NCBI RefSeq assembly: GCF_015265455.1
Contig: NZ_CP054492.1
Span: forward strand, 2,418,001 to 2,482,000
Length of the DNA: 64,000 nucleotides
Origin: Candidatus Sulfurimonas baltica
GTDB lineage: Bacteria > Campylobacterota > Campylobacteria > Campylobacterales > Sulfurimonadaceae
Reading direction: 5' to 3'
Made by a program: the position numbers and the translations under genes. Within the stretch, counting starts at the first letter, position 1. Each line of letters starts with the position of its first letter. Below, in pieces: positions 34,428 through 49,701 of this stretch. The notes under the pieces are model-generated. The model saw nothing but the letters and a program-made list of their open reading frames with translations. It was not told where the DNA came from and searched no databases.

Positions 34428-34813
34428 CTTGCTCTCCTTTGCTTAATAAAGTTTGGTTGAGCAAAAACTGTGTCGCAATCTTCATGAAGCAGAGCTGCTG
34501 TTTCAAAAATATTTTCACCACCAATTACTCTTAGCAGATACAAATCACCACTCAACTTTCTCAAAATCTCAACATTATATTTGGACAAGAGAGAGTGCAT
34601 GTCAGAATGAGGGGCTAACTGCAAAATGATTTTGTCATCTATACCTACAACACTAGAATCGATTGTTTTTTTATAATAAACTACACTGCCTTGTGACTTG
34701 GCACTAACAGCTACTTCCTCAACAAAAACTTTTTTTCCAGCATCATAATAATATAACGATGAAGCACCTAACGACGAAAGAACAAAAATTAAAATAATTA
34801 AAACTTTACTCAT
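34424..34813 (-). CDS. stand-alone subtilase propeptide-like protein
   Basis: 129 residues from the second Met; the longer frame would start before the GGGGG-containing ribosome region. The signal peptide is MSKVLIILIFVLSSLGASS. The second half (HSLLSKYNVEILRKLSGDLYLL, then AALLHEDCDTVFAQPNFI, read in pieces) matches the pattern of N-terminal prodomains of fervidolysin-like subtilases, which end in an ...V.FAQPN motif just before the catalytic domain. In those enzymes the prodomain is the first part of the protease itself. Here it is a separate exported protein whose stop overlaps the protease start (ATGA). It could act in trans as a folding chaperone and inhibitor. Confidence 0.72.
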   Translation of the reverse strand: MSKVLIILIFVLSSLGASSLYYYDAGKKVFVEEVAVSAKSQGSVVYYKKTIDSSVVGIDDKIILQLAPHSDMHSLLSKYNVEILRKLSGDLYLLRVIGGENIFETAALLHEDCDTVFAQPNFIKQRRAR

Positions 34814-34846
34814 AATAGAACCCCCATGTTTTAACAATATGCAACA

Positions 34847-34902: not shown

Positions 34903-36237
34903 TTATTTTATTACTTTTCTAAAGAGGTTTAACAGTAAGCCAAGAGTAAGTAAAACGTAACCCAAATAAATCCAAAAAATTCCAGGATTATAATTAACCA
35001 TAAAAATAGTGCTGTCATTATTCTCAAATTTTGTCTGAAAAAATCTATATCCTTTATATGTAAACGGTTCGTTTACGCTAAGCTTTGCCTTTATATTTTT
35101 ACTGCCGTCTATTATCTCAATATCACTAAAGTAGTTCTCTACATTTCTAGAACCAGGGTAACGCTTAACCTCAAAGTCATGCAAATAAACTTCAAAAGGG
35201 AGTGTAGTTATTTTTTTGCCCCAGCGAATATCTACTTTTGTATTTTCATCAAGCCATATCTCTTTTTTATATCCACTAAAATATTTATCTTTTTGTATCA
35301 AGACAATTTCTATTTTCATGTCATCATACTCTACATTTGCAAGCATTACTGTGTTTGTATTTTTAGATTTTTCCTCTTGAGGTACGGCTACTATACTGCC
35401 TATTGTAGTTGCTTCGCTTGCCAATATACCAATTTCGTCAGTCATATAGTATAAAATCCCTTGTGAGAAATCATGTATGCTACTTGTGTTGTACTCCTCG
35501 CCAAAGTTTGACTTAATAAGTAAATTTGATTTGAAATGTTGTGATTTACCCTCATTTGCTTCTATTTTAAAGTAAGGCTTTGTTTTGTCTTTTGGTTCCA
35601 TATTAAAAAGCAATTCAAAATCATCAAACTGTATGGCTCCCAAATCTTCAAGATAATACTTTTCTCTTTTAATGTTATCTCTTATGATTTCAAATGCCAT
35701 TGCACCTCTTTTTATCCCTTGATTCCATTTTTGCCTGAGAACTTCAACCTTAGCATTATCTAAATAGTATCCGCTTTTTATCTTAAACTCTCTGCCGTCT
35801 AAATCAAAAACACCATCAAATGCACCATCTTTACCATCTTGAAAATACTCTTTTGTTTCTCCATCTTTAGTTACATGTAGACTCATAAAGTAATCACCAG
35901 AGAGCATTACATTTCTGCTCATACCTTTTGTAAGATACAAGTCCTCTTTATAGCCGTAGTTTTTAGATAAAAAAGCGCCTACTAAAATAATCAAAAAAGA
36001 GATGTGAAATAAAAACAATCCAAGTTTTTTAAACTGGTACATCTTTGCTCTAAAAATAGCTACTAATAAAAACAGAGCTAAAATACCCTGTAAAGTCCAA
36101 AACCATAAAGTATCATAAACATACTCTCTTGCCACGCCATGCGAAGATGTATTTTCAATAAAAGTTCCAGTAGCAATAGACAAAGCATAAATAGCCACAA
36201 AAACAAGTGCAACCTTCATGGAAAACAACCTATACAT
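34903..36237 (-). CDS. ccsB: ResB/CcsB subunit of a second cytochrome c haem lyase
   Basis: 444 residues starting at the ATG preceded by AAGGATAGAAAA and overlapping the ccsA stop by 8 bp. Four membrane helices are evident: near residues 7-27, 50-68 and 75-93, and a last one near 417-437. The large periplasmic domain sits between the third and fourth. It aligns by eye with the first half of the fused CcsBA: TFIENTSSHGVAREYVYDTLWFW, LFHISFLIILVGAFLSKNYGYK, YPGSRNVENYFSD and VNEPFTYKGYRFFQTKFEN all have counterparts there. With the adjacent CcsA it reconstitutes a complete system II lyase, presumably dedicated to the multihaem cytochromes of this cluster. Confidence 0.88.
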   Translation of the reverse strand: MYRLFSMKVALVFVAIYALSIATGTFIENTSSHGVAREYVYDTLWFWTLQGILALFLLVAIFRAKMYQFKKLGLFLFHISFLIILVGAFLSKNYGYKEDLYLTKGMSRNVMLSGDYFMSLHVTKDGETKEYFQDGKDGAFDGVFDLDGREFKIKSGYYLDNAKVEVLRQKWNQGIKRGAMAFEIIRDNIKREKYYLEDLGAIQFDDFELLFNMEPKDKTKPYFKIEANEGKSQHFKSNLLIKSNFGEEYNTSSIHDFSQGILYYMTDEIGILASEATTIGSIVAVPQEEKSKNTNTVMLANVEYDDMKIEIVLIQKDKYFSGYKKEIWLDENTKVDIRWGKKITTLPFEVYLHDFEVKRYPGSRNVENYFSDIEIIDGSKNIKAKLSVNEPFTYKGYRFFQTKFENNDSTIFMVNYNPGIFWIYLGYVLLTLGLLLNLFRKVIK

Positions 36238-37849
36238 TTTTTCTATCCTTATATGAAACAACTATTAAGATAAGCACACTTAAAGCACCTACATAAGCAT
36301 ACCAAGGGACACTAGAGCCACTATCACTTGCAAATACATGTATAGCATCAAAAAAGTAGTTTACACCAAAGTATGTCATCAAAATAGTAAAAAAACCTAA
36401 AACCGACATAACAGAAAACATATACACAACACTCTCTTTCACAACAGATCTAAAATGAAGTATTAACATATAAACTAACACCGAGATTAACGACCAAGCC
36501 TCTTTAGGATCCCAAGCCCAAACTCTTCCCCACAACTCATTTGCCCATACGCTTCCAAGTAGTGTACCAATAGCCAAAAGAGAGAGACCAAAAATCATAG
36601 ATGCTTCATTTGTTTTATATGATTCTTTGATTTTCTTAACTACATGTAGATTATTTTTAGAGAATTTAAAAAGCACAAGAGTTATAAACCCAAGCAAAAA
36701 ACTTAGAGTTAAAAACGCATATGAGGCACTAATGATTGCTACATGTATAACAAGCCAAATAGATTGAAAACTAGAAGTAACTGTTGTAATTCTTGGGTCA
36801 ATCCAGCTAAGATGTGCAGCAAAAAGCATAACACCAGCCATAAAAGTAGTTACTCCAAGGGCAAAGGTGGATTTTTTGTTAAAGATAAGTCCTACAAGTA
36901 AAATTGCCCAAGCTATTAAAACCATAGATTCGTAAGAGTTTGTCCATGGGGCATGAGTGCTTATATACCATCTAAGTCCAAGATTGAAACTGTATAAAGC
37001 AAATAGTCCATATAGTAGAAAATCAGCACTTTTTTCAATCAACATGTAGTTCTTTTCTCTAAGTACTTTTATGAAGCTAAGCACTAATAATAAAAGTCCA
37101 ACTATAATATAAAATGGGTAAACTCTCTCAAATATCAATATCTTGTTATAAAAAAGTTCAGCGTCCACTTTTTCTTTAGTTAGTAAAACATTTGAACCAT
37201 GAAGTTTTTGAAATTCAGCTATTTTTTTCACCATATCTTTTGCTAAATCTACATCACCAGATATTAATGCTTTTTTATTTAAAACCAAGATTTTTTTAAC
37301 ATCAAACTTTTGTGAACCTGTAAATTTTTCTTCATAAGTTTTTGGAGATAACCAACTTTTAGCTTCATCACCTGCTAAGGGAAAAACCTTTAAGTACCCT
37401 TGTGAGTAAACAAACTCTGCTACTTTGAGCTTTTCATCTAGTTTTAACAGCTCTTTTTCATAAGCAGTTCTACCGCTTGCCTCTTTTTTATTTACTTGTG
37501 CAACTTCAAGCATTAAAGTATAATTACCGTCTTTATAAAAGTCGTTAAAACTCTGCACTTTTGAATTGTACTCAAGCATAGGAACTTTTTTCCAAAACTC
37601 TGGTGCAAAAGTCATTCCAAGAACTACTTGATTATGATTAAGCCCAAACAACTCTTTTTTTCTTGTCAGTTTATTTAAAACATCCATATTTAGAGTGTCA
37701 AGAGGTTTCATGCGACCATCACCACTTTGAACATTCAAACGAGAAAAAGCCTCTGTGTAACTCTTGTCTAACTTGTATTTAATAACATCATCTTTTATAG
37801 AAGAAAAAAGTAGGGTTGTAAAAATTAAAAAAATTAAAAAAAATCGCAT
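36230..37849 (-). CDS. ccsA: CcsA subunit of a second cytochrome c haem lyase
   Basis: 539 residues, homologous to the second half of the fused CcsBA. A signal-like N-terminal segment (MRFFLIFLIFTTLLFSS) leads into a periplasmic linker domain (about residues 20-235; GDGRMKPLDTLNMDVLNKL corresponds to GRIKPIDSFAIELLNK in the fusion). The integral-membrane CcsA domain has the haem-handling motif WGRVWAWDPKEAWSLI. Compared with the fused copy, Tyr and Gly of the motif are replaced (RYWGWD to RVWAWD). The first codon directly follows the stop of the upstream gene, and its end overlaps ccsB. The pair probably serves the neighbouring cytochromes. Confidence 0.9.
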   Translation of the reverse strand: MRFFLIFLIFTTLLFSSIKDDVIKYKLDKSYTEAFSRLNVQSGDGRMKPLDTLNMDVLNKLTRKKELFGLNHNQVVLGMTFAPEFWKKVPMLEYNSKVQSFNDFYKDGNYTLMLEVAQVNKKEASGRTAYEKELLKLDEKLKVAEFVYSQGYLKVFPLAGDEAKSWLSPKTYEEKFTGSQKFDVKKILVLNKKALISGDVDLAKDMVKKIAEFQKLHGSNVLLTKEKVDAELFYNKILIFERVYPFYIIVGLLLLVLSFIKVLREKNYMLIEKSADFLLYGLFALYSFNLGLRWYISTHAPWTNSYESMVLIAWAILLVGLIFNKKSTFALGVTTFMAGVMLFAAHLSWIDPRITTVTSSFQSIWLVIHVAIISASYAFLTLSFLLGFITLVLFKFSKNNLHVVKKIKESYKTNEASMIFGLSLLAIGTLLGSVWANELWGRVWAWDPKEAWSLISVLVYMLILHFRSVVKESVVYMFSVMSVLGFFTILMTYFGVNYFFDAIHVFASDSGSSVPWYAYVGALSVLILIVVSYKDRKNV

Positions 37850-38314
37850 CTAGTTGTCCTCTATAGGTGTGTTAACCTCTTTTAATATTTTTATATGATT
37901 TATCTTCCAAGTGCCATCTTCTAACTGTATAAAAAAGTATCTCAAATCATAGTCAGTTTTGACAGGCCCTGATGAAACTTTTTTTCTATATATATCTATA
38001 TATCTATATTTCCATTTCTCGTGTGTGTCGAGTGTAGCAGTTATGCCGTCTTGATTGAACTCACCAAATTTTATACCCAAAAGAAGTGCATCCATAAAAA
38101 GATAGTTGTCTTGGTAAGACTCCAACCAAATCAAAGTCTTATAATATATTGCTTGTGTAAGATACTCTTGGAGATGGTCAAATTTCTTTTTTTTAGCAGC
38201 TAAGAGAACTCCATGGTTGTAGCCAACAACGAGCTCTCTAAAAGGCTTATTGTCTACTTCACTGGCTAAAAGAGTAAATGATAAAAATATATAAAATATA
38301 AAATATTTAATCAT
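37850..38314 (-). CDS. periplasmic protein, possible NTF2-like fold
   Basis: 154 residues with a signal peptide (MIKYFIFYIFLSFTLLAS). The mature part begins with helices, followed by strands WKYRYIDIYRKKVSSG, DLRYFFIQLEDGTWKINHIKI. The ending (long strands with a W-K-I pattern after a helical start) resembles small NTF2-like domains, but I cannot place it in a named family. It lies between the 11-haem cytochrome and ccsA with no gap to ccsA, so it is part of the same operon and perhaps an assembly factor. Confidence 0.6.
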   Translation of the reverse strand: MIKYFIFYIFLSFTLLASEVDNKPFRELVVGYNHGVLLAAKKKKFDHLQEYLTQAIYYKTLIWLESYQDNYLFMDALLLGIKFGEFNQDGITATLDTHEKWKYRYIDIYRKKVSSGPVKTDYDLRYFFIQLEDGTWKINHIKILKEVNTPIEDN

Positions 38315-38326
38315 AGCTCTTAAATC

Positions 38327-40501
38327 TTACCAGTTTAATGGTGCTGAATCACCACCACTTGAAAGCCCATCATGTTTACCAGAACAACCACCTACTGTTC
38401 TAACATCACCAAATCCAGCTGTACCAGATGCAGGTTTTCTAAACCGTACAGGCCCCGCAGTATTTCCACCATAGTTATAAGGAGCTGGAAAAGTAGCATA
38501 TACAAACAATCTAGATACTGGTGAACCATGAGGTATAGCTACATGACATCTAACACAAGGAGAGTTTGACATCTCAGATTTATCTTGGTCGGTATGCCCG
38601 ACACCAGCGGCACCTGTTTCATGACAGTTTTTACATAATATGTCCAAGTCGCCAGTGCCTGTTGTTGCTGGTTGTCTATATAGAGTTCCATCACTATTTG
38701 CAGGCCAGAATTTACCTACACCTTTTAGCATAAATTTATAACTAGAACCATGAGGTCCTTTTGGATCAGTTTCTGGTTCATTATCTGCTCCATGGCAATC
38801 GCTACAATACATAGTCTGATCTCCAACATTTGTTTTCCATGGATCTTTCATTTGACTAGCTGTATAAGCTTTTGGTGCATAACTTCCTGTTCTGTCATTT
38901 AATGCTACATTAACAGGATGTCCAGAGCGGTTGTTTGGATTAAACTCCCAAGCCACATCTGTAAACTGCACAGATCCGTCACTTCGTGTTAAATATGCTG
39001 AGTGGGCTGGACTATCGACTAGCGTATCTCCATTATCATTATCCGCTCCCATTCCCCAGTATGAATGACACTTGAAACATATTTCATATTCGTATGTTGC
39101 AGTTTCTAGTGTAGTAAATTCTACCGGCTGAAGCCACCTACCTGGCCAACTGCTTGGTTTTACTCCGCTTGCACCTTTTAATGGACTGGTTGTATACGAA
39201 GCAGATACAATCTTATTTGTGTCAGCACCTGGTGTGTCAGGATACCATTTACCAGCCGTTTGCGTAGCTGGTTTACGAGAAATCTTTTGAACTTGATGTT
39301 GGTTATGACAATCCATACACTCTACATGCTCAGAAGTAGCCCAGTCTATACCACTTGTAGGTCCTCTATCATTTGTTGTTCCCTCACCATAAACATAGTC
39401 TAAATTTGTATGGTTAGTATTTCCAGCGATATTAAGAAGGGTAGGCCCATGACCATAGGTCCTAGTCATAACAGTCTCTATATCTTTCCCCCCTGTCTCA
39501 TGGTTTGTTCCATGGCATGGAGCCGTACTAACAGTATCTGAAGCACCTTGAAAACATGTTTGTTCCTGCACTTGTCTTGTTAAATATTCACTTCCTGAAT
39601 TATGAGGAGTATGACAATTTGCACATTTCATATCTGAGACTTTTGTAGCAGCTCCAGCTGAAAACTTATCATTTACTGCCGTGTTACTATATGTTGCATT
39701 CATGACATCATGTGTACTTCCCTCAAAATTATCTTTTATATGGCATGACTGACATGTAGCTGCAATATTTTGAGCATGTGTTCCAACATCTACTCTTAAA
39801 AATTTTTCATTTTCTTTATGTGGATCATGACATGATATACATTCAACAAATTTTTTACCGTCATGTGCTGGGTATGTACGAAGCACTATTGATGAATTTG
39901 CTTCTGGGTCTGTTACTAGTTCATTTCCCCTTGAGCTACTACTATTATGGTCTACACCTGGCACTGGCATAGTCATTGGCTCCCCGTACGATATTGCTAC
40001 TGGGTGATGATTACTCAAATCTGTACCTATAAAAGCACTACTTGTACTTTGCATAGTTCCATCACCAGCTACACCACTCATAGCTATGTCACTACCATCA
40101 CCCTTACCGCTGCCTGGAGCATTTGAAATAGCTCCAATTGCTACGGTTCCATCATGACAACTAAGACATTGTCTAGAGATTGTTCCTGGTTCTCCTGCTG
40201 CACTTCCCAACTCTGTTGGTGTAGGATATCCAGTTCTCTTTAAATAATCACTATCATACATTGTGTAAGCACTAACTGGCATACTTCTGTTCCATAGTGG
40301 AGCTGCAACAGTATCTGCCTCGTGAGGAGTGTGACAAAAAACACAAATTTGCGTTTCGACTGTAGCCTTAACAATAGTATTGTTGCCATCTACTACATTG
40401 TTAGTAACAGATAGATTATGCTTCGTATTAACAATTCCGGCGAATAGAGTAATAGAGGTGAAAAATGTTACTCCAAATATAAATAATTTAATAAGTTTCA
40501 T
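38327..40501 (-). CDS. large multihaem cytochrome c, ten CXXCH plus one CX12CH
   Basis: 724 residues with a signal peptide (MKLIKLFIFGVTFFTSITLFAG). Canonical haem sites are CVFCH, CLSCH, CISCH, CQSCH, CANCH, CMDCH, CFKCH, CSDCH, CKNCH and CVRCH. Between the fifth and sixth lies CFQGASDTVSTAPCH, a CX12CH spacing, where one haem would be expected from the pattern. The N-terminal third (CVFCHTPHEA...APLWN, CLSCHDG, NAPGSG, DLSNHHP, CISCHDPH) is shared with the 4-haem cytochrome of this cluster. A final Cys-Ser-Gly-Lys-His lacks the second Cys and is not a haem site. It is probably a surface or periplasmic electron carrier and the most likely terminal component of the conduit. Confidence 0.9.
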   Translation of the reverse strand: MKLIKLFIFGVTFFTSITLFAGIVNTKHNLSVTNNVVDGNNTIVKATVETQICVFCHTPHEADTVAAPLWNRSMPVSAYTMYDSDYLKRTGYPTPTELGSAAGEPGTISRQCLSCHDGTVAIGAISNAPGSGKGDGSDIAMSGVAGDGTMQSTSSAFIGTDLSNHHPVAISYGEPMTMPVPGVDHNSSSSRGNELVTDPEANSSIVLRTYPAHDGKKFVECISCHDPHKENEKFLRVDVGTHAQNIAATCQSCHIKDNFEGSTHDVMNATYSNTAVNDKFSAGAATKVSDMKCANCHTPHNSGSEYLTRQVQEQTCFQGASDTVSTAPCHGTNHETGGKDIETVMTRTYGHGPTLLNIAGNTNHTNLDYVYGEGTTNDRGPTSGIDWATSEHVECMDCHNQHQVQKISRKPATQTAGKWYPDTPGADTNKIVSASYTTSPLKGASGVKPSSWPGRWLQPVEFTTLETATYEYEICFKCHSYWGMGADNDNGDTLVDSPAHSAYLTRSDGSVQFTDVAWEFNPNNRSGHPVNVALNDRTGSYAPKAYTASQMKDPWKTNVGDQTMYCSDCHGADNEPETDPKGPHGSSYKFMLKGVGKFWPANSDGTLYRQPATTGTGDLDILCKNCHETGAAGVGHTDQDKSEMSNSPCVRCHVAIPHGSPVSRLFVYATFPAPYNYGGNTAGPVRFRKPASGTAGFGDVRTVGGCSGKHDGLSSGGDSAPLNW

Positions 40502-40512
40502 CTTTAACCTCT

Positions 40513-41511
40513 CTATTTGGATACATTCAAACGTTTAAACATTTGAACTCTTTTATTTTTTGTATCGCTAATGTATATTTTATCATTTTTTGAGATAGAT
40601 ATACCAATAGGCATATTAAACTCACCGCTTCTACTTCCATAACTACCAAAAACCATTAACAACTCACCTTTTTGATTAAAGACCTGTATTGCGTTGTATA
40701 GGGTATCACTTACATAAATATTTCCACTGCTGTCAACAGAAATACCTCTAGGACTAGTAAAACTCCCTATTTGTCTGCCTATATGACCAAAAGAATTAAT
40801 ATATTTTCCATCTTTATCTAAAATTTGCACACGGTGATTCATCGAATCTGTAATATAAATTTTGCCATCTTTATCTACATCAATATAAGTAGGCCTGTTA
40901 AATTCTGCCTCTCTATTTCCAAAACGTCCAATAGAAAACAAAAACTTACCATCAAGGCTGGTTACATGCACTTGACTAGAAACTGCATCTACAATATACA
41001 AACGTTTATTATCAGGGCTTACGGCAAGTCCAACAGGTCTTTTAATTCTAATATTTTCTATTATATAGTCAAAATCCCCATCTTTTTCAAAAACATATAT
41101 TTTCGCACGAATCGAATCTGACACATATATCTTTCCCTCTTTATCTGAAATCACATCTACCGGATAAGCGAAAGCTTGATTGCTAGAACCTTCTAATGTG
41201 AGAACTTCATTTTCTTCTGTGTCAAAAATATAAACTTGTTTTTTATCAACATCTGATATGTAAAGTCTATTTCCAGATACATGTATTCCAAAAGGAAAAG
41301 ATATTGTTATGTCTTCCTCTCCCAAAACAAAATCACTAAGTTTTGCAAAAAAACCTTTTTTTATGCCTATGTCTGTTGCTGTTTTAAATGAAGAAAGATA
41401 CTCTAAACGAGCTTTATCAGGCTCTTGTGGCCAATAAAGTCTTTCCGTATCTTTTGCATTTAGATTCACACTTGCTATTAACAATAATAGTATATATAAA
41501 GTTGTTTTCAT
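40513..41511 (-). CDS. secreted NHL-repeat beta-propeller
   Basis: 332 residues with a signal peptide (MKTTLYILLLLIASVNLNA). The mature part starts TERLYWPQEPDKARLEYLSSF and contains about six NHL blades. Typical repeats are FPFGIHVSGNRLYISDVDKK, RPTYIDVDKDGKIYITDSMN and SPRGISVDSSGNIYVSDTLY. Such propellers usually mediate protein contacts. It is a paralogue of the NHL lipoprotein 3 kb upstream: both share the opening W/Y-P-x-x-P-x-x-x-R-x-x-Y. NHL proteins recur in multihaem-cytochrome loci of metal-reducing bacteria. Gaps to its neighbours are about 12 bp. Confidence 0.86.
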   Translation of the reverse strand: MKTTLYILLLLIASVNLNAKDTERLYWPQEPDKARLEYLSSFKTATDIGIKKGFFAKLSDFVLGEEDITISFPFGIHVSGNRLYISDVDKKQVYIFDTEENEVLTLEGSSNQAFAYPVDVISDKEGKIYVSDSIRAKIYVFEKDGDFDYIIENIRIKRPVGLAVSPDNKRLYIVDAVSSQVHVTSLDGKFLFSIGRFGNREAEFNRPTYIDVDKDGKIYITDSMNHRVQILDKDGKYINSFGHIGRQIGSFTSPRGISVDSSGNIYVSDTLYNAIQVFNQKGELLMVFGSYGSRSGEFNMPIGISISKNDKIYISDTKNKRVQMFKRLNVSK

Positions 41512-41523
41512 TATTATAATCCT

Positions 41524-43272
41524 TTAAAATCTTCTAGTAAACTTTGCTTGAAAAGTCTCTTTGGTACTGTTTACGGCTTCCCTATAACTATGCACTAATG
41601 ATATACTTGAAAGCCCTATGTTATACCCTAAACTTGAATTTAATCCATATGTTAAACTACTAGCTTTAAAGTCTTGATTTAGATTTGCATTTGTTGAAAA
41701 ATTCAATCTCGTAAAAAAGCGATATTTAAATCCTAAACTTGCACTAGATATTATCTGTTCTATAATTATTTTATCATTTATTGTTTTTGTATACCTAGCT
41801 ATAAAACTACTATCTAGTCTTCCTTTTAAGCCTACTCTTCTTGAATAGTTCAATCTCAAATCGTCGCTATAATTTAAGATTGTTTGAGTTTTTGATGATG
41901 CGTAGCTAATTTTCATATTATTATAAAAAAGCCATAAGCGAGACGATAAAGAAGAATTTAAAATATATGTATCAGTACCTTGAGAATCTGAACCTCTTGA
42001 TCCTGCATATCCTCCACCAACGTTTAATGATGAATTTATAGAAGGCAGTTTTTCAGATAAAGATATATTTGCATTGGCGTTAAAATTTGTATTTGTTTCT
42101 GTTTCTGTTTCTATTTTATTTATTTCTTTTAGAGATCTGGATCTATTATTTTGATTCATAATAACTGCTGCTGAACCTCCATAAGTAAGACTTCTTTGTG
42201 GTGACAACTTTTTAGTATGCTTGTATGTTGAATTTAGTTTTATATTGCTTGTTTCAGAGCTAAAGTCATCACTATCTAAATAAAAATAACTTATATTTTG
42301 AGATATTGAAAAGTCATTATTTGGTCTATATACAAAATTTTGATTAATATTAAGAGTGTCTGTAATATACATTGTTTCTGTGCTAGAGCTATTGCTATCC
42401 ATTCTAGAATAAAAATCTACACGATTAAAATTCATTAAAATAGTTCCCTGATATTTTGCTTGTGGATTCCAAGTTAAGTTAATATTTCCACCCATTGTAG
42501 TTGTATCTGTAATGCCATCATTTTCAAAAACATAATTGTTATACATAAAATCAGAGTCCAAAACAATATCTTTGTCGATTTTAAACTTATGAGTAAATTT
42601 AACTGAATTGTCTTCATCGTTTCTTTGCATAACATCGCCAGTAGTAGTGTTTTTTTTATTTTTATACTTTAATCTAAAAATATGTCTTCCCGTAAGATAA
42701 GAAACTCCTGTATTATAGCTATTTGATGTTTCAGTGGAAAAATTTGCATTAGAAGCAAGATTGCTAGAACTAACTACATTCTTATCAGCCCCATAAGTAA
42801 AACCTAGCTTATTCAACCGTACTGAACCTGAAATTCCATAATTTTTTGATTCTGCCAAAATATAAGTTACTATATCGTCATTAATGATAGTGCTTGGACT
42901 ATTTCTTGCATTATAAAACATAGTCATAGGAAATTTCGTACTTTTAAAAACATTGGTAGTAATTCCATAGTCTAAAGCTTCACTTTTTGCTTTGTTACTA
43001 TTCCCATTAATATCTTGTGTCATATCTGAGTAACGAAGACTACCAAAAAGTTTATAATCCAAAAGTTTTGGATTATAAATATTTCCATCATAATTTAAAT
43101 TATATTCTTGTATTAAATTTTGCCTATTCAACAAAGTATCGAAAGTATCTAGACTTTCTTCCTCATAGTTAAGCCCGATGCTTCCTCTCATGCCTCTATC
43201 TGGATAGCTTTTAGCATTAAGGGGTGTTATAACCATTATGCACAAAAGAATACAGATAAGACGTTTCTTCAT
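41524..43272 (-). CDS. outer-membrane beta-barrel of the cytochrome cluster
   Basis: 582 residues, with a signal peptide (MKKRLICILLCIMVITPLNA). The rest is a long series of alternating hydrophobic/polar strands separated by Asn/Ser-rich turns (for example YKLFGSLRYSDMTQDINGN and RHIFRLKYKNKKNTT), ending in QAKFTRRF. The terminal Phe is the Bam insertion signature. Strand count is roughly 22-26, similar in size to barrels that house multihaem cytochromes (MtrB/PioB/OmbB types), although I see no diagnostic N-terminal CXXC of MtrB. Being flanked by PPIase, NHL and cytochrome genes, it is a good candidate for the pore of a porin-cytochrome conduit. Confidence 0.8.
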   Translation of the reverse strand: MKKRLICILLCIMVITPLNAKSYPDRGMRGSIGLNYEEESLDTFDTLLNRQNLIQEYNLNYDGNIYNPKLLDYKLFGSLRYSDMTQDINGNSNKAKSEALDYGITTNVFKSTKFPMTMFYNARNSPSTIINDDIVTYILAESKNYGISGSVRLNKLGFTYGADKNVVSSSNLASNANFSTETSNSYNTGVSYLTGRHIFRLKYKNKKNTTTGDVMQRNDEDNSVKFTHKFKIDKDIVLDSDFMYNNYVFENDGITDTTTMGGNINLTWNPQAKYQGTILMNFNRVDFYSRMDSNSSSTETMYITDTLNINQNFVYRPNNDFSISQNISYFYLDSDDFSSETSNIKLNSTYKHTKKLSPQRSLTYGGSAAVIMNQNNRSRSLKEINKIETETETNTNFNANANISLSEKLPSINSSLNVGGGYAGSRGSDSQGTDTYILNSSLSSRLWLFYNNMKISYASSKTQTILNYSDDLRLNYSRRVGLKGRLDSSFIARYTKTINDKIIIEQIISSASLGFKYRFFTRLNFSTNANLNQDFKASSLTYGLNSSLGYNIGLSSISLVHSYREAVNSTKETFQAKFTRRF

Positions 43273-43282
43273 CTAAATATAT

Positions 43283-44236
43283 TTACCTTATAATTTTTGA
43301 TTTTAATTTCAAGCGTTCAAGCAAATCTGTTCTTTTTTTATCTTCAAATTTTACTTTCAAATCTCTTCTCAAGCCATCTTTTATTTTATTAAACGAAAGT
43401 TGCTTGCTCTCTTTCATATCTTCAATTTTCACAATATAAAAGCCAATGTCCATCTCTATAATTTCACTAATTTCACCTTTTTTTAGCTTAAAGGATTTTT
43501 CTTCTACATATGGTTCCAATAATCCTTTATGTATAAAACCCATATCGCCACCTTTGATTCTACTCATTGCGTTTGAATATTTAGCAGCTATATCTCCAAA
43601 ATCTGCACCATCTTGAATTTTTTTCATGGCCTCTTTTGCTTTTAACCTTGCATCTTCTTTCCCATTTTTAGCACTTGGATTATTTCTAATATATATAAGA
43701 CGAACTCTTCTTTTTTCTGGTTCTTTAAACTTATACATATTTTTTTCATAATACTTTTTCAAATCTTCGTTAGTGATTGTTTTTTTTATTTTTTCTTTGT
43801 AAAGGTTATCTAATGTAATATCTTTTTTAATAGCTAGCTTTAGTGTTTCAAAAGAAACTCCATTTTTTTTAAATCCTTCTATTAAAAATCTTCTTGTATC
43901 TTTTACTCCCTTTACTTTGTTTTTGATAGTCCTTTCCATCTTCATAAGTTGGTTTTCTACGTCTTCTTTTGTTGCACCTAGATTTTCAGATAGAGCATAG
44001 TTATACAACAAAGCTCTATCTATAAGTGTTTTCATAGCTTTAATTTTTAAATCTTTAACTTTTTCATCAGTAACATTGGAATGTAAGAAGCTTTTTGGCA
44101 TAAGCTTGTTTACTTCTCTTTGCAAATCATCTTCTGAAATTGAAATGCCATCTACAACAGCAACCGACGCCTCTGGTAACAAAGGACTCTTTGCAAAAAG
44201 AGCTAAACTTAATGTTAGTAACAATATTATTTTCAT
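43283..44236 (-). CDS. periplasmic SurA/PpiC-type peptidyl-prolyl isomerase
   Basis: 317 residues with a signal peptide (MKIILLLTLSLALFA). An N-terminal SurA-like helical chaperone region (about residues 20-170) is followed by one parvulin domain (about 178-270). It shows RRVRLIYIRNNPSA, ADFGDIAAKYSNAMSRIKGGDMGFI, SFKLKKGEISEIIEMDIGFYIVKIE. A C-terminal helix closes the fold. Its job is probably folding or delivery of the barrel and cytochromes encoded beside it. Its end is 10 bp from the barrel gene, and its start overlaps the NHL lipoprotein stop by 4 bp. Confidence 0.9.
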   Translation of the reverse strand: MKIILLLTLSLALFAKSPLLPEASVAVVDGISISEDDLQREVNKLMPKSFLHSNVTDEKVKDLKIKAMKTLIDRALLYNYALSENLGATKEDVENQLMKMERTIKNKVKGVKDTRRFLIEGFKKNGVSFETLKLAIKKDITLDNLYKEKIKKTITNEDLKKYYEKNMYKFKEPEKRRVRLIYIRNNPSAKNGKEDARLKAKEAMKKIQDGADFGDIAAKYSNAMSRIKGGDMGFIHKGLLEPYVEEKSFKLKKGEISEIIEMDIGFYIVKIEDMKESKQLSFNKIKDGLRRDLKVKFEDKKRTDLLERLKLKSKIIR

Positions 44237-45375
44237 TTATTTTCCGCCTCATTGTAAAGCTCTTTTTCAAGCTCTTTTTTAATTCTCATCTCTTCTTTAT
44301 TTATTTTACCATTAAGTCCTGACAATTCTTTATATTTTTCAGGATTACTTAACTTCCACTTTTCACTTAAATACTGAAATGTTTGAATTCTTCCGGTGAA
44401 ACCATCTGCTATAATTATCTTGTCATTCTCATCTATATAGAGTCCAGATATAAGTCTAAATGTTCCAGGTTTAACATATCCAGCACCACCAAAGTAAAGT
44501 AATAATGTTCCTTTATCATCAAAGACCTGTACATTATTAAAAGCAGAATCAGTAACATATATATGTCCTTCGCTATCAACTCCTATACCTTTTGGTCTTG
44601 TAAATTCGCCCGGCCTAGTACCAACTTTTCCAAATGTACGAATAAATTTTCCATCTTTATCAAAAATCTGAACACGAAAATTTTGAGTGTCTGAAACAAT
44701 TAGATTATTATTTCTACTATCAATCGCTACATTAGTAGGAAAATTAAATTCACCATCTGCATGTCCACGTTTTCCAATCTCTAACAACATCTTTTTCGTT
44801 TCTATATCAAAAACTTTTATTTTATGACCCTTAGTATCTGCCACATACAAACGATTTAGCTTTTTATCTATAGCAATTCCCGTTGGTTGTGCAAATTCTA
44901 ACCTACTTCCAATAGCAGTGAGTAGTTTTCCTTTTTCGTTATATACCATTACAGCTTTTCTACGAGTATCACTTATATATGCAAATCCCTTAGAATCAAA
45001 AGCAATTCCAACAGGTCCACTCAATCCATCACCAATAAAAGAAACATCTTTAGTTTTTTCATCAATAACAAAAATCATCTTAGTTGCTGTATCTACAGCA
45101 TACAGTTTACCGTTATCTATAGTTACTCCATAAGGCTTAACAATTAATGGGTTTTTGCTTTTATTTTCTATTGATTCCCCTAAAATTATATCTAAAGTAT
45201 TCAATTCAACTTTTTCGTTGTTCTCTCCTCTGTAAGTTTCAAGATACTGTATCCTTGGCTCATCTGGAAAAGATGGGTAAACTATGTTTACTTTCTCAAC
45301 TTTAACTTCTTTACTAAAGCACCCTTGAAACAATATAGATACTACAATAAAAGAAAATATAAAAAATATTCTCAT
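44233..45375 (-). CDS. NHL-repeat lipoprotein
   Basis: 380 residues with lipobox SILFQGC. After a short linker (IVYPSFPDEPRIQYLETYRG) come about six NHL blades, for example KPYGVTIDNGKLYAVDTATK, QPTGIAIDKKLNRLYVADTK, FPTNVAIDSRNNNLIVSDTQ and RPKGIGVDSEGHIYVTDSAF. A charged helical C-terminus rich in Glu and Lys follows. It is paralogous to the soluble NHL protein downstream. The lipid anchor suggests a scaffold on the periplasmic or outer face of the outer membrane. It is second in the 45970-34903 operon. Confidence 0.86.
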   Translation of the reverse strand: MRIFFIFSFIVVSILFQGCFSKEVKVEKVNIVYPSFPDEPRIQYLETYRGENNEKVELNTLDIILGESIENKSKNPLIVKPYGVTIDNGKLYAVDTATKMIFVIDEKTKDVSFIGDGLSGPVGIAFDSKGFAYISDTRRKAVMVYNEKGKLLTAIGSRLEFAQPTGIAIDKKLNRLYVADTKGHKIKVFDIETKKMLLEIGKRGHADGEFNFPTNVAIDSRNNNLIVSDTQNFRVQIFDKDGKFIRTFGKVGTRPGEFTRPKGIGVDSEGHIYVTDSAFNNVQVFDDKGTLLLYFGGAGYVKPGTFRLISGLYIDENDKIIIADGFTGRIQTFQYLSEKWKLSNPEKYKELSGLNGKINKEEMRIKKELEKELYNEAENK

Positions 45376-45385
45376 AATCTATTCC

Positions 45386-45970
45386 TTATTTTTGATTTGT
45401 TTTACAAACTTTTTTTATTTTATAAAAAAGAGTGACATCACTCCATGTTTTACCTAAATGCTTATCGAAGCACTCTTTACTAAATGATGAAAATAGGTCT
45501 TTTGCATCAAAATCAAGAATATTTATATTTCCTGAAGCAGACAATGAGTTTCTCATTATATAATATTTCATATTTATTATTTTTTCAACACCATTCATAC
45601 CTATTTTTACAGAGAGAGTACCCTCTCTTGAATTACGCATCTTTACATCTAATATTTCAGCACTTATTTCATCACCTTTAAGCTTGTCAAAGAAAAACAA
45701 ACTCAATGTTTCATCCATAGCACCATCAGATGACTTTACACTTTTTTTATCAACAATTAAAGTTGCACCTACCAATAGCGCTTTAAGAGTATTTCCTTCT
45801 TTAGCAGCAGGTTTATACTCAAAACTAGTAAAAGTGGCATTCATGGGAACTTTATAAATTGTTTTATATCCAGAAAACGAAAACTCTATCTCATCCAACT
45901 GTGTTAACTTACAAACTTTTGCATTCAATAAAGAAATACCCAACAATATTATTAAAATAATTTTTTTCAT
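45386..45970 (-). CDS. periplasmic YceI-like protein
   Basis: 194 residues with a signal peptide (MKKIILIILLGISLLNA). The mature part, EIEFSFSGYKTIYKVPMNATFTSF followed by strands and DETLSLFFFDKLKGDEISAEI (read in two pieces), suggests the lipocalin-like barrel of YceI proteins, which bind isoprenoid or other hydrophobic ligands. The similarity is weak. One Cys lies near each end (VCKLTQ and KVCKTNQ), able to form a disulphide. It is the first gene of the operon that leads into the NHL lipoprotein, isomerase and barrel, with its own -10 upstream. Confidence 0.55.
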   Translation of the reverse strand: MKKIILIILLGISLLNAKVCKLTQLDEIEFSFSGYKTIYKVPMNATFTSFEYKPAAKEGNTLKALLVGATLIVDKKSVKSSDGAMDETLSLFFFDKLKGDEISAEILDVKMRNSREGTLSVKIGMNGVEKIINMKYYIMRNSLSASGNINILDFDAKDLFSSFSKECFDKHLGKTWSDVTLFYKIKKVCKTNQK

Positions 45971-45988
45971 AAAAATCCTTACATATAT

Positions 45989-45994
45989 ATTATA
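45989..45994 (-). promoter_or_regulatory. -10 of the barrel/NHL operon
   Basis: TATAAT on the minus strand, 19 bp upstream of the ATG of the YceI-like gene. AAGGATTTTT is the ribosome site. The upstream stretch is strongly A/T-biased and has no clear -35. Confidence 0.4.
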
Positions 45995-46076
45995 TCTTTA
46001 ATATATAAACAAAAGAAAAAAATTTAAAAAAAATAAAGCTTTAAGAAAAAATGCAGAAATTATATGGAGAAGGTTT

Positions 46077-46102
46077 GTAGTAGGTGGATAACCACCTACT
46101 AC
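46077..46102 (-). terminator. perfect hairpin after the 4-haem cytochrome gene
   Basis: GTAGTAGGTGG-ATAA-CCACCTACTAC has an 11-bp perfect stem, 26 bp past the stop. It lacks an immediate T tract on the minus strand, so it may stabilise the upstream mRNA end as much as terminate. It marks the boundary between the cytochrome operon and the barrel operon. Confidence 0.6.
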
Positions 46103-46127
46103 TTTAAAGTAACATCTATTTTAGATA

Positions 46128-46907
46128 TTATTTAGCATGACAACCAAAACAAAGTTCACTTCTCTCATTTGTATGACGAAGGTAATTAACTTGTATATTA
46201 GTTGCTGACTGAGCAACACCAGTAGCATTATGCGGGTCATGACAAGAAACACATTCTACGTTACCGCCACGTAATAGGGCAGAAACTAGTTGACTTCCAC
46301 TTGGAGTTACCCATGATTCATTATTTTCACCATCATCTAAAGTATCAGTAGTTTCTCTAAGGCTTGCTCTACCAGGTGTATATACTATAGATATAGGGTG
46401 ATCATTTGAAAGATCAACAGCAGTTGCACCAGAAGCTGCAGAAACACCCATAGTTCCACCAATATTACCACCATATGGAGTTCCTAAGATATTAACAATA
46501 TTCTGTGAACCAGCTATTGGTTGCATACCAGAACCAGGAGCATTTGCAATAGAATCTACAGCAGAAATACCATCGTGACAACTTAAACAAACCAATGATG
46601 CGCTAGCAATTGTTGTATTTGCCTCTGTTCCACCAACTGTCGTTCCATACGTAGTATAAACTTGAGTTTCATTCGAGTCAGACTTATTCCATAAAGGTGC
46701 GCCTGCAAAAGAAATATTTGCAGCGTGAGGCGTGTGACAATATACACAAACTTCACCATTATCATCATCACCTAGTCTAGCACTTAAATTATGTGGACTT
46801 GTAGAGTCAGTAATTGAAACCCCACCATAATTACCACCAGAAACACCAGCAAAAGTTACAGATGAAACCAACAATGAAGCTAATAACAATCTTAATTTAG
46901 TATTCAA
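46128..46907 (-). CDS. 4-haem cytochrome c, paralogue of part of the large cytochrome
   Basis: 259 residues when started at the TTG at 46907, which has GGAGA five bases upstream; a start 24 bp earlier would place that ribosome site inside the gene. The signal peptide is MNTKLRLLLASLLVSSVTFA. Haem sites: CVYCH, CLSCH, CVSCH and CFGCH. The whole protein parallels the N-terminal third of the 724-residue cytochrome (CHTPHAAN, APLWN, CLSCHDG, NAPGSG, DLSNDHP, CVSCHDPHN). It is probably a periplasmic or secreted electron carrier. A separate promoter candidate lies upstream. Confidence 0.88.
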   Translation of the reverse strand: MNTKLRLLLASLLVSSVTFAGVSGGNYGGVSITDSTSPHNLSARLGDDDNGEVCVYCHTPHAANISFAGAPLWNKSDSNETQVYTTYGTTVGGTEANTTIASASLVCLSCHDGISAVDSIANAPGSGMQPIAGSQNIVNILGTPYGGNIGGTMGVSAASGATAVDLSNDHPISIVYTPGRASLRETTDTLDDGENNESWVTPSGSQLVSALLRGGNVECVSCHDPHNATGVAQSATNIQVNYLRHTNERSELCFGCHAK

Positions 46908-47012
46908 TATCTCTCCTTTTAAAATATACAAAGCTTAAACACCTATATATTTCTATTTGATATATCAGATCATAACATATAAACTTAATAAATGAAACAT
47001 ACTATAACTACA

Positions 47013-47042
47013 ATTATAATTTTAGTTTTAATTAAGTTACAA
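47013..47042 (-). promoter_or_regulatory. possible promoter of the 4-haem cytochrome gene
   Basis: On the minus strand TTGTAA (47037-47042) and TATAAT (47013-47018) are 18 bp apart. A leader of about 100 bases would follow, containing the partly symmetric CTGATATATCAAA. A small GTTAC-AAAAA-GTAAC hairpin (47036-47050) overlaps the -35 and may end the upstream 8-haem transcript. Confidence 0.35.
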
Positions 47043-47065
47043 AAAGTAACGTTATTGCTTTATGT

Positions 47066-48088
47066 TTACTTTTTATGGCATCTTTTACATACATTAAAAG
47101 GATGAGAGCCTTTCATTCTAAGTAGGTATATTCCTGTGGAGCCATGTGGATTGTGACAACTTGTACAAACAAATTCTCTTCCTGGTCGAGCTGGATCAGC
47201 TCTGTCTTTAGTTGGGTGTGCCCCTTTGTTTCTTGCAAAAACAAAACCTGAAACTATATGGTTACCTGGGATTGCTTTTTCTGTATGACATGTAGTACAT
47301 AAGTTCCAAATCTTTTTACGAAGAAAAAATTCATTTTCTGAACCATGTGGATTGTGGCATCTTTTACATCTTCCATCATTAACAGGGCCATGACCATATC
47401 TGCTCGCCATCCAGTCTTCAACACTCTCGTGACAATAAGCACATCTAGTATAGATAGGATCTGGAGCCAAGTACTTTGATAAACCCTCATCATCTACGTT
47501 ATATTCTCCACCATTACCAGTATGACAAACGTTACAAAGCCAGTTCGCTGCTGGTGCGTGAGAATTACTTGTATTTAGTTTAGCATTATGACATTTATAA
47601 CATGTAGTTTCAGAGACATCATCAAAAGGCTCATCTTCATGGGGGATATTGTTTGTCATATCATGACATGACTTACACTTATCCTCTTCCTCTTGGGAGT
47701 GAAAATATCTTTTATCATATTGTTCTGAATCGTAAACATCTACGCCTGGCAAAACATCGTTATAAAAATAAGATTCTCTTTTGTCAGTACTAAGAAGTTT
47801 CCCATCTTTATATGCTTCTACTATGATTTCATTTCTTGCAGGATGAAGTTCAATCGTTTTACAATATGTAGCTTTTTGTGATGTCACATCTAATGTAGTA
47901 TTTATATCACCTTGACGTATAACTATAGTATCAACTTTTTTATAATCAGCATCTATTACAAAAGTGCTATCTTTACCCTCGTAACGCACATAATCATATG
48001 GTTTTAAAATTTCTATTGAAGATGTCTCTTCTGCATTGCCGCTTAAAGCGACAAAGAGAAGGATAAAAAAGAGGTATATTGTTTTCAA
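47066..48088 (-). CDS. 8-haem cytochrome c with N-terminal Ig-like region
   Basis: 340 residues with a signal peptide (MKTIYLFFILLFVALSGNA). Residues 20-120 form a haem-free beta-rich region (IEILKPYDYVRYEGKDSTFV), possibly an Ig/cadherin-like module. Eight haem sites follow: CKSCH, CYKCH, CNVCH, CAYCH, CKRCH, CTTCH, CTSCH and CKRCH. The CHNPHGS repeats are of the doubled-CXXCH type. Eight haems packed in about 210 residues give a compact wire-like domain. It is 8 bp downstream of the 12-haem gene and in the same operon. Confidence 0.9.
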   Translation of the reverse strand: MKTIYLFFILLFVALSGNAEETSSIEILKPYDYVRYEGKDSTFVIDADYKKVDTIVIRQGDINTTLDVTSQKATYCKTIELHPARNEIIVEAYKDGKLLSTDKRESYFYNDVLPGVDVYDSEQYDKRYFHSQEEEDKCKSCHDMTNNIPHEDEPFDDVSETTCYKCHNAKLNTSNSHAPAANWLCNVCHTGNGGEYNVDDEGLSKYLAPDPIYTRCAYCHESVEDWMASRYGHGPVNDGRCKRCHNPHGSENEFFLRKKIWNLCTTCHTEKAIPGNHIVSGFVFARNKGAHPTKDRADPARPGREFVCTSCHNPHGSTGIYLLRMKGSHPFNVCKRCHKK

Positions 48089-48096
48089 AACTTGAT

Positions 48097-49332
48097 TTAC
48101 TTCAAGTTGACTTTTGGAGTCTCTCTATCGTAATGGCGACGAGCATGACAAGCTGGCGCACACGAACCACCATTTTCAGTTTCTATATAACGAATAGGGA
48201 AGTTTATTCTTCCAAACTGTGTTTTCTTTCTTAAGTGGTGAGGGTACTCTTTTGTTCCATGAAAATCATGACAAGCGCGACAAGAACGACCTTTAATTTT
48301 ATTTACATGTACAAAGTGTATATTTTTATCTCCATTTCTAAAATTAGTTGCTTCTATAGTAAACTCAGCTTTAATTTTATCTGGCTCGTGACACTGAAAA
48401 CAGATGTAATTTTTTTCGTCAAAACTTTCATAAAAAGTTCTAGGAAATGGTTTTTTTAACATTCTTAAATTGTTTGAGCCATGAGGATTATGACATGCTG
48501 CACAATCACCCCAAAGAATTGGACCATGCCAATCTGGGTTGTCTTCAAGATGCTTTGCAATATTTTGAAGCTTGTAGCCTGTCTCATCAGTTGTTAAAGA
48601 TTCATTGTGACAAGTAAGACATAACTCTTTTGCCGTATCTTTTATAATAAATTTTGGATGCTCAGAGCCGTGAGGGTCATGACACTCAAGACATTTTCTT
48701 GGTCTGTCAATTGCTCCATGCTTATCTGTAACTTCTGCTATCCAAACTTTTTTATCAACATGACACATAAGACATATATCTTTTTTGCGATCGGCTTTTA
48801 ATTGATAAAGATTATCTTCAGTATGAGGATCATGACAGTTTGTACATTGGTCTTTTACTGGTGGGTGAATATATGTAGTATTGTGTAAAAACTTATCTTT
48901 TGCCTCGTGACATGATGTACAAAGTTCATTAATACTTGATCTTACTAAAAGTTTTGCATTTGGCGATTCATGTGGATTATGACATGCCGTACAAGCACCT
49001 GCTCCAACTGGTCCGTGAATGAAATTTTTAGTATCTTTTGGTTCATGACATTGGTAACATAATTCTGGAGTATCAAGCTTTAAATCTTCTCCATCTTCAG
49101 GATCAGACCCCTCATGACAAACAGTACAATCTCCCCACTCATAAGGTGGGTGAACAACTTTTTTATCTGCTAAAAGTGCAGTTCCATAAAACTTTTCTTT
49201 CTCAGTTAAAGCCACTTCTTCTGTTGTAGCATTTACCATATCAGCAGATAAATCTTCAGCTGCAAATACATTTGTACATGTAAGCAATAAAGAGATTGCG
49301 ATACTTCCTATATAAAAACGATTGTTTTTCAT
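48097..49332 (-). CDS. 12-haem cytochrome c, eleven CXXCH plus one CX3CH
   Basis: 411 residues with a signal peptide ending in TNVFA, then AEDLS. Eleven canonical sites: CTVCH, CYQCH, CTACH, CTSCH, CTNCH, CLMCH, CLECH, CLTCH, CAACH, CFQCH and CRACH. The last site near the C-terminus is CAPACH, a CX3CH spacing. Repeats CHNPHGS/CHDPHGS are of the doubled-CXXCH type. Haem density (one per about 34 residues) is like that of the MtrA/DmsE periplasmic cytochromes that plug into outer-membrane barrels, though it is longer. It overlaps nothing and lies 3 bp from the monohaem gene upstream. Confidence 0.9.
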   Translation of the reverse strand: MKNNRFYIGSIAISLLLTCTNVFAAEDLSADMVNATTEEVALTEKEKFYGTALLADKKVVHPPYEWGDCTVCHEGSDPEDGEDLKLDTPELCYQCHEPKDTKNFIHGPVGAGACTACHNPHESPNAKLLVRSSINELCTSCHEAKDKFLHNTTYIHPPVKDQCTNCHDPHTEDNLYQLKADRKKDICLMCHVDKKVWIAEVTDKHGAIDRPRKCLECHDPHGSEHPKFIIKDTAKELCLTCHNESLTTDETGYKLQNIAKHLEDNPDWHGPILWGDCAACHNPHGSNNLRMLKKPFPRTFYESFDEKNYICFQCHEPDKIKAEFTIEATNFRNGDKNIHFVHVNKIKGRSCRACHDFHGTKEYPHHLRKKTQFGRINFPIRYIETENGGSCAPACHARRHYDRETPKVNLK

Positions 49333-49335
49333 GTT

Positions 49336-49701
49336 CTACCTTTGTCTTGGTCTATCAGCAGCTGAAATAAGATATGTTGCTAATGCTTTCATCTTTTCTT
49401 CTGAGAGTGTTTTAATTTTTGCTAACTGTGGATTCATAACAGGTGCACGATCTGGATATACGATAGGTGTTCCTTGTGAACTCAGATAAGGCACTAAAGA
49501 GCTCTCTTTACCTGTGTAAGACTCTGCTATTTTACGAACTGATGGTCCTATAAGTTCCTTATCTAGCTTATGACAAAGAGTACAGCCTTTTGACTCAAAG
49601 ATTGCTTTGCCTTTTGCTTTCATAACATCATCTAAATCTTCTGCCATAACATTAGAGAAAAATAATATGCTAAAAGATAAGCCTAATATAAATTTTTTCA
49701 T
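49336..49701 (-). CDS. monohaem class I cytochrome c
   Basis: 121 residues with a signal peptide (MKKFILGLSFSILFFSNVMA). It has one haem site, SKGCTLCHKLDKELIGPS. The candidate axial Met is in APVMNPQLAKI, followed by the closing helix LSEEKMKALATYLIS. This is the c5/c551 type of small soluble periplasmic carrier. As the first gene of the cytochrome operon, it could pass electrons from the quinol or thiosulphate-oxidising side to the multihaem proteins. Confidence 0.9.
   Translation of the reverse strand: MKKFILGLSFSILFFSNVMAEDLDDVMKAKGKAIFESKGCTLCHKLDKELIGPSVRKIAESYTGKESSLVPYLSSQGTPIVYPDRAPVMNPQLAKIKTLSEEKMKALATYLISAADRPRQR

Follow-up and report, generated by a model that had tools for sequence, protein, structure and literature searches.

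A Uet-like gene cluster with OmcE-family cytochromes in Candidatus Sulfurimonas baltica

The undecahaem electron transfer (Uet) system was described by Eddie 2022 for cathode-oxidising Tenderiales and occurs in some Gallionella; its published parts are the undecahaem cytochrome UetJ, the extracellular tetrahaem UetA, the trihaems UetDEG, the isomerase UetB, the NHL proteins UetHI and the barrel UetC (PMC10734462). A second relevant system is the OmcE nanowire of Geobacter sulfurreducens (7TFS), in which the interfacial haem is held by His residues from two subunits (PMC12954529). Here, a window of 64,000 bases from Candidatus Sulfurimonas baltica (positions 2,418,001–2,482,000 of NZ_CP054492.1, assembly GCF_015265455.1) was analysed. 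Coordinates below are window positions, and the genome, a single contig of 2,737,757 bases, is labelled G000. A preliminary description had proposed an outer-membrane electron-transfer island at 34903–49701, and the parts found there support that assignment for a Campylobacterota genome. The cluster probably encodes a Uet-like conduit for electrons across the outer membrane, together with a cytochrome wire of the OmcE type. Parts, homologies and linkage come from the sequence itself, whereas function, direction and acceptor are inferred.

Compared by published inventory, the cluster shares with Uet an undecahaem and a tetrahaem cytochrome, a peptidyl-prolyl isomerase, a barrel and two NHL proteins. 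Whereas Uet includes the trihaems UetDEG, none of the 13 window genes encodes a three-haem protein, and the window cluster adds cytochromes with 12, 8 and 1 haems as well as two lyases for haem attachment; on these grounds we term it Uet-like rather than Uet. A further difference lies at the eleventh haem site of the undecahaem protein, which is CX12CH and not CXXCH. With MtrCAB, MtoAB and PioAB the cluster has in common a large barrel, whose first structural match is a chain of the Mtr complex, and a 12-haem cytochrome partly like chain A of that complex. It differs from these systems in that the barrel matches no MtrB or MtrC family, the 12-haem protein falls under the DmsE cut-off, and what recurs beside the barrel is an undecahaem protein that carries an OmcE-like domain. 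Wolinella has dedicated CcsBA lyases for unusual haem motifs, such as the CX15CH motif of MccA. Here too, extra lyases adjoin a cytochrome with an expanded haem motif, but most haem motifs of the window cluster are ordinary, and the specificity of the lyases is a guess. In the titles, abstracts and passages searched, no description of OmcE or Uet proteins in Campylobacterota was met.

OmcE homology, the undecahaem protein and the barrel

The tetrahaem character of OmcE is shared by the 4-haem protein, which matches 7tfs at E 2.6e-17 over residues 12–267, nearly its full length, and 9yuq at E 2.4e-14. The N-terminal third of the undecahaem protein matches the same structures (7tfs, E 1.7e-21, residues 20–240; 9yuq, E 9.3e-14, residues 15–255). 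These matches mark the 4-haem protein and the N-terminal third of the undecahaem protein as homologues of OmcE, the Geobacter nanowire subunit. Four distal His residues, at OmcE columns 47, 69, 178 and 234, are kept in 16, 15, 17 and 17 of the 17 aligned rows (OmcE included); the misses come from one shortened copy and one row with Gln. The preliminary description, whose electron-transfer island is supported and whose manganese oxide link is plausible, had missed this homology, as well as the resemblance to Uet, the CX12CH motif and the second lyase. A profile search against solved structures was circular for 7tfs and 9yuq, which were already in the alignment, and was not used. Outside the window, G000 carries a second OmcE-like gene, shortened and with three haem motifs (L032:8991–9470). 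G307, a close relative in the genus, has one with four motifs (L128:8097–8804), and its flanking genes match those at L032:8991–9470.

Scripted counts gave 1, 12 (11 CXXCH and one CX3CH), 8, 4, and 10 CXXCH plus CX12CH haem motifs for the five cytochromes, in agreement with the mono-, 12-, 8-, 4- and 10/11-haem proteins described earlier. The last is an undecahaem cytochrome because it combines 10 CXXCH with one CX12CH. A genome contig collection was scanned with the undecahaem alignment, which returned 359 relatives among 397 pattern matches. With 359 such stretches in one collection, the rarity claimed earlier is not supported. The best 80 of the 359, at 79 loci, and six further genomes gave 85 sources. 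For the undecahaem alignment, 79 of the 85 relatives, those longer than 560 aa, were used. The eleventh site spans C316–H330, with Cys316 present in 74 of the 79 rows and Cys329 and His330 in 73 each. Its spacing is CX12CH in 10/10 Aquificota, in 29/30 Campylobacterota contig rows (one has CX13CH), in 5/5 additional Campylobacterota genomes and in the single Nitrospinota. It is CXXCH in 6/6 Pseudomonadota and three rows without phylum, CX4CH in 3/3 Ignavibacteriota, and varies among the 5 rows of Bacteroidota and the 15 of Nitrospirota. Since CX12CH, CXXCH and CX4CH align at this position, the same haem site carries motifs of several lengths. Five rows (four Nitrospirota, one Deferribacterota) have Gly at 316, where the alignment is doubtful. 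A further C-terminal haem motif, complete in many undecahaem relatives, is incomplete in the window protein. No match to the undecahaem protein was found in 72,556 plasmid records.

The 28-stranded beta-barrel was predicted by AlphaFold2 from 37 sequences (the window, five genome stretches and 31 loci with a barrel of 480–700 aa), with a predicted local distance difference test (pLDDT) of 90.2 and a predicted template-modelling (TM) score of 0.71. The outcome agrees with the large outer-membrane barrel named earlier. A first model, built on 6 sequences, had a pLDDT of 69.1 and matches that did not discriminate, and was replaced. With Foldseek, the first match is chain B (MtrB) of the Mtr complex 6r2q (E 8.9e-10, TM 0.45). 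VIA-align also ranks 6r2q_B first (Z 17.8, root-mean-square deviation 10.0, 427 aligned). The barrel has no Pfam or NCBIfam match. The 12-haem protein partially matches 6r2q_A of the Mtr complex (E 2.9e-16, residues 113–227), presumably MtrA, although the structure file labels the chain otherwise. Against the DmsE family TIGR03508 it reaches 122.9 bits, under the curated cut-off of 192.2. By median, it is the best conserved of the 11 cluster genes compared.

In the mechanism we propose, quinol-derived electrons would travel by way of three periplasmic cytochromes (monohaem, 8-haem and 12-haem) and reach the undecahaem protein, which would have its 7-haem part in or at the barrel. Its OmcE-like N-terminal domain, outside the cell, would be the base on which 4-haem subunits stack head to tail, and the resulting wire would lead to a solid acceptor, of which manganese oxide is the likeliest. 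The isomerase would fold the barrel or its clients, and the two NHL proteins would hold the complex at the membrane. Haem attachment would fall to the two dedicated lyases, one of which perhaps serves the CX12CH site. The full combination is offered tentatively, as possible rather than probable: an undecahaem wire base, with its OmcE-like domain fused to a barrel-embedded conduit, onto which the 4-haem protein polymerises, a lyase of its own for CX12CH, a hairpin-driven excess of subunit, and MnO2 respiration. If true, it would show how an OmcE-type nanowire connects to the cell. Thirteen non-motif His residues of the undecahaem protein (28, 60, 166, 228, 264, 300, 351, 364, 392, 402, 528, 584 and 658) are kept in at least 71 of the 79 relatives, and H710 in 70. 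As there are only 11 haem sites, these 13 leave a surplus, from which H28, for example, could be donated to the first 4-haem subunit. This surplus speaks for an undecahaem base, but not strongly.

Recurrence, hairpin, divergence and haem lyases

Because the loci were found through the undecahaem protein, its presence in all 85 sources is by construction; many of the contigs are short. The barrel occurs in 42 sources and all six core genes (4-haem, NHL1, isomerase, barrel, NHL2 and undecahaem) in 28. Of the 42 barrel-holding sources, 26 carry the six on a single strand in the same order; 21 of these are Campylobacterota, 4 Nitrospirota and 1 Aquificota. The gene order is not a matter of chance, since it recurs in other contigs. 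A pairing of the barrel with the 12-haem cytochrome had been assumed, but a relative of the latter is present on the DNA examined in 16 of the 26 ordered sources and missing from 10, some of them incomplete loci. Profiles detect the undecahaem protein in six Pseudomonadota contigs and NHL2 in five. In L101, L103, L105, L109 and L110 both of these match, but the barrel and 4-haem profiles do not, on contigs that are partly incomplete. L060, labelled Bacteroidota, groups among Aquificota in the undecahaem tree, and some bin names may be wrong. Among 298 Campylobacterota genomes drawn, six, the window genome included, match the 4-haem protein. Undecahaem cytochromes have also been described in Tenderiales and in a manganese-reducing Dechloromonas (PMC13264449).

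Two further arrangements were seen at related loci. A second cytochrome cluster, comprising an 11-motif protein, two 7/8-haem proteins and one 3-haem protein, adjoins the islands of L024 (5366–10387), L043 and L065; in L024 and L065 it also holds a 4-haem protein. Inside the cluster of other Campylobacterota families (L022:6604–9558, L023:3212–6148, L028:9497–12436) lies a trio of proteins of about 374, 218 and 390 aa, judged by their sizes to be perhaps an ABC-type exporter. This trio is not at the corresponding place in the window.

Strong hairpins were scored as perfect stems, with G-T allowed, in which pairs plus half of the G-C pairs reach at least 12, in gaps no shorter than 50 bases; each source contributed a single 4-haem gene, the nearest to the profile. 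Of 36 such gaps after the 4-haem gene, 24 hold a strong hairpin, as compared to 15 of 140 for ten other gene types pooled and 1 of 18 after the 8-haem gene, that is, in the gap before the 4-haem gene. The 69-base stretch holding the window hairpin has a minimum free energy of -22.6 kcal/mol (z -6.07). A T-rich tail is present in 9 of the 24 hairpins, and the window hairpin is without one. A hairpin at this place would fit, as for a subunit made in excess.

The cluster genes of G000 and G307 have diverged very unevenly. Identities are 89% for the monohaem cytochrome (C1), 95% for the 12-haem, 85% for the 8-haem, 92% for the 154-aa protein (p154), 87% for CcsA and 84% for ResB. They fall to 69% for the undecahaem protein, 63% for NHL2, 60% for the 4-haem protein, 59% for NHL1, 41% for the isomerase, 37% for the 194-aa protein (p194) and 30% for the barrel. 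Among the 25 of 153 pairs listed, the only other one as close in the 12-haem protein (93%) is L061/L084, with 91% for the barrel, 85% for the isomerase and 55% for the 4-haem protein. For L040/L097, identities are 84/69/71 for 12-haem/8-haem/p154 and 85/78/74 for 4-haem/NHL1/isomerase. The tree of NHL1, isomerase and 4-haem protein pairs G000 with G307 (100/99), with a path of 1.22 as compared to 0.11 for 12-haem/8-haem/p154. Block replacement was rejected as the cause because this tree still pairs the two genomes; the candidate explanations are fast divergence and exchange with a relative outside the sample. In L039, the NHL1, isomerase and 4-haem genes group outside the set that holds its 12-haem, 8-haem and p154 genes (two trees), which suggests exchange of the core module.

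A second, fused CcsBA lies at 25904–29056 and is 66–73% identical to the CcsBA proteins that close the clusters of five Sulfurimonas-type loci (L053, L039, L037, L097 and L040), as compared to 46–47% for the housekeeping CcsBA, present in one copy each, of two genomes of the genus that lack the island. The interval 34903–49701 described earlier is real, but the unit extends left to this fused gene. G000 and G307 each have three CcsB-type genes; 11 of 12 other genomes examined have one and the remaining genome has none. Two of the three in G000 are the split lyase at 34903–37849 and the fused one. The same split-plus-fused arrangement is found in L034, and a quick tree places the undecahaem protein of L034 with its G000 and G307 counterparts (SH-aLRT 97).

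Manganese oxide and competing explanations

The title of Henkel 2021 names S. marisnigri and S. baltica as manganese oxide reducing, and the literature searched, as far as it was accessible, gave no explanation of the route by which Sulfurimonas electrons reach solid manganese oxide. The cluster supplies candidates for the porin, the wire and its base in this transfer and could explain MnO2 respiration by some members of a sulfur-oxidising marine genus. An undecahaem match of any kind is found in 19 of 135 genomes of the genus (15 at E <1e-100, the other four weak or partial). Among the 12 single-contig genomes, only G000 and G307 carry the island. The curated cut-off was used for nifH, because at E 0.001 it matches all 135 genomes; at this cut-off nifH is found in 23 of the 135 and, among the 12, in G000, G306 and G307. 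A PF00346 protein of 362–364 aa, which we take to be the size expected of EchE, occurs among the 12 in G000, G307, G303, G414 and G309. Only G000 and G307 combine nif with this Ech-sized hydrogenase, which makes the previously suggested link to MnO2-reducing Sulfurimonas plausible.

Among earlier isolates, nif is reported only for S. marisnigri, S. lithotrophica, S. baltica and S. marina, and Ech as typical of the pelagic S. gotlandica, S. marisnigri and S. baltica (PMC12029903, PMC12403661); one passage of PMC12029903 omits S. marisnigri from those with complete nif clusters. New mangrove strains have nif too, and five of them Ech (PMC12029903, PMC12403661), at GC contents of 40–58% (PMC12403661) or 36.1% and 57.3% (PMC12029903). 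GC is 34.8% in the window and 31.9–35.5% in four stretches of G307. A Sulfurimonas in cable-bacteria sediment is reported to lack a complete porin–cytochrome set and perhaps to have an undetected porin (PMC11748539).

A Uet-like conduit with a wire is favoured for several reasons. Both the 4-haem and the undecahaem proteins are OmcE homologues, and the four distal His are kept in the former; the six-gene core is ordered, its inventory matches Uet, and the large barrel has a chain of the Mtr complex as first match. A hairpin follows the 4-haem gene, and the island genomes have three CcsB-type genes. Finally, the island sits in the two genomes with nif and Ech, and an undecahaem cytochrome occurs in the manganese-reducing Dechloromonas.

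Other observations weigh against it. The 4-haem protein is only 32% identical to OmcE, and polymerisation, secretion and electron transfer are here predictions from the genes. The hairpin after the 4-haem gene is below threshold or absent in 12 of 36 gaps. The barrel is 30% identical between two genomes as close as G000 and G307, and its structural ranking is nearly tied, with Z 17.8 against 16.8 for the next large barrel, so that the first match stands barely above other large barrels. Eight of the 42 loci with a barrel, including some truncated by a contig end, gave no match to the isomerase profile, and no inner-membrane quinol oxidase was identified in the cluster. The species names S. baltica and S. 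marisnigri for G000 and G307 are themselves inferred from nif, Ech and GC. Alanyl-tRNA synthetase is 96% identical between the two (next best, 87%; 27 genomes), and because they are close kin, the link with MnO2 reduction counts once.

A porin–cytochrome conduit without a wire is a doubtful alternative; in it, the 4-haem protein would be a monomeric surface or periplasmic cytochrome that exchanges electrons with the undecahaem protein, the role suggested for the tetrahaem of Uet. The gene set of Uet is the same and the available text on it mentions no filament, and some loci carry extra 4-haem paralogues among the core genes that are not obviously all wire subunits. However, the homologue OmcE, with the same His set, does polymerise, and both the hairpin after the 4-haem gene and the long gap before it also count against this reading. 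The cluster might instead work in the uptake direction, with a mineral, a cathode or a partner cell as the electron source, which is what has been proposed for the Uet of Tenderiales and of iron oxidisers. Sequence cannot tell direction, and Uet was described for cathode-oxidising Tenderiales and found in Gallionella (PMC10734462). Uptake is nonetheless unlikely, as the two probable carriers, if rightly named, are MnO2 reducers and the reported donors of S. marisnigri are soluble or elemental sulfur species.

It is similarly improbable that barrel and isomerase form a secretion apparatus for OmcE-like proteins while electrons cross the outer membrane elsewhere. The barrel, isomerase and lipoprotein do resemble an export kit, and the 4-haem, NHL1, isomerase and barrel genes diverge jointly between G000 and G307; yet the undecahaem gene comes after the barrel and NHL2 in the 26 ordered sources, though these were found via that protein, and the cluster shows no other recognisable conduit. 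A respiratory chain confined to the periplasm and serving a soluble acceptor, for which the many periplasmic multihaem proteins of Campylobacterota would speak, is very hard to reconcile with a large barrel, a lipoprotein-like propeller and the OmcE homology. If instead the conduit with a wire is correct, Uet-like clusters of Campylobacterota, Aquificota and Nitrospirota would be nanowire systems and more organisms would be expected to make cytochrome wires. The homology joins the literatures on the OmcE nanowire and the Uet conduit.

Features of the locus and neighbouring genes

The 13 open reading frames at 34903–49701 form an unbroken minus-strand series, as first described, and the domain matches likewise bear out the two NHL propellers (one with a lipobox-like N-terminus by eye), the SurA/PpiC isomerase and the CcsA/CcsB lyase. 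The two further periplasmic proteins noted earlier correspond to p194 and p154, both with signal-like N-termini.

Table 1. Features of the cluster and adjoining genes in window coordinates
Feature	Position	Strand	Basis or remark
Monohaem cytochrome c (C1)	49336..49701	-	PF00034 E 2.3e-8; one CXXCH; candidate periplasmic relay
12-haem cytochrome	48097..49332	-	11 CXXCH + 1 CX3CH; candidate periplasmic relay
8-haem cytochrome, non-haem N-terminal part	47066..48088	-	Motif count; partial match 6r2q_A E 1.1e-11
4-haem OmcE-family cytochrome, proposed nanowire subunit	46128..46931	-	7tfs_A E 2.6e-17, 9yuq_N E 2.4e-14; four CXXCH + four conserved distal His
RNA hairpin, 11 bp stem, 4-nt loop	46077..46102	-	Directly 3' of 4-haem gene; folding z -6.07
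194-aa protein (p194), signal-like N-terminus	45386..45970	-	No known family
NHL propeller NHL1, probable lipoprotein	44233..45375	-	NHL E 7.1e-33; lipobox-like N-terminus (by eye)
PpiC/SurA-type isomerase	43283..44236	-	PF13616 E 2.3e-20
Outer-membrane beta-barrel, 582 aa, 28 strands predicted	41524..43272	-	AlphaFold2 model; first match 6r2q_B
NHL propeller NHL2	40513..41511	-	NHL E 1.9e-32
Undecahaem cytochrome, UetJ-like: OmcE-like 4-haem N-terminal domain + 7-haem remainder	38327..40501	-	7tfs_A E 1.7e-21, residues 20–240
154-aa protein (p154), signal-like N-terminus, no family	37850..38314	-	Recurs in cluster of other loci
CcsA-type half of split haem lyase	36230..37849	-	PF01578 E 1.8e-34
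ResB-type half of split haem lyase	34903..36261	-	PF05140 E 4.3e-24
137-aa secreted protein	34424..34837	-	No Pfam match; by eye possible propeptide/inhibitor of adjoining 1755-aa protein
1755-aa subtilase, Ig-like domains, two Lcl_C stretches, lipobox-like start (by eye)	29160..34427	-	PF00082 E 2.5e-47, PF13205, PF07603
Second, fused CcsBA haem lyase	25904..29056	-	TIGR03144 match; identity to CcsBA of other clusters

Lipobox-like N-termini were also seen by eye in most NHL1 relatives compared. The gene for the 194-aa protein lies between those for the 4-haem protein and NHL1. Neither Pfam nor NCBIfam holds a family that matches this protein, and solved structures give nothing at E 1; among the sources searched it is found only in G000 and G307. 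Sigma-70-type promoter matches are at chance level (71, as compared to a mean of 70.9 in shuffles). PF09698 has no match in the window genome, nor in control genomes, which makes this search uninformative.

The subtilase and the small secreted protein (29160–34837) sit between the two haem lyases, and the subtilase belongs to the unit by position only. In Geobacter, the protease OzpA processes OmcZ, and the subtilase recalls OzpA. A 1473-aa counterpart is found at the same place in G307. The GC content of the window is lowest at 40–46 kb, at 0.29–0.30 as compared to 0.348 overall.

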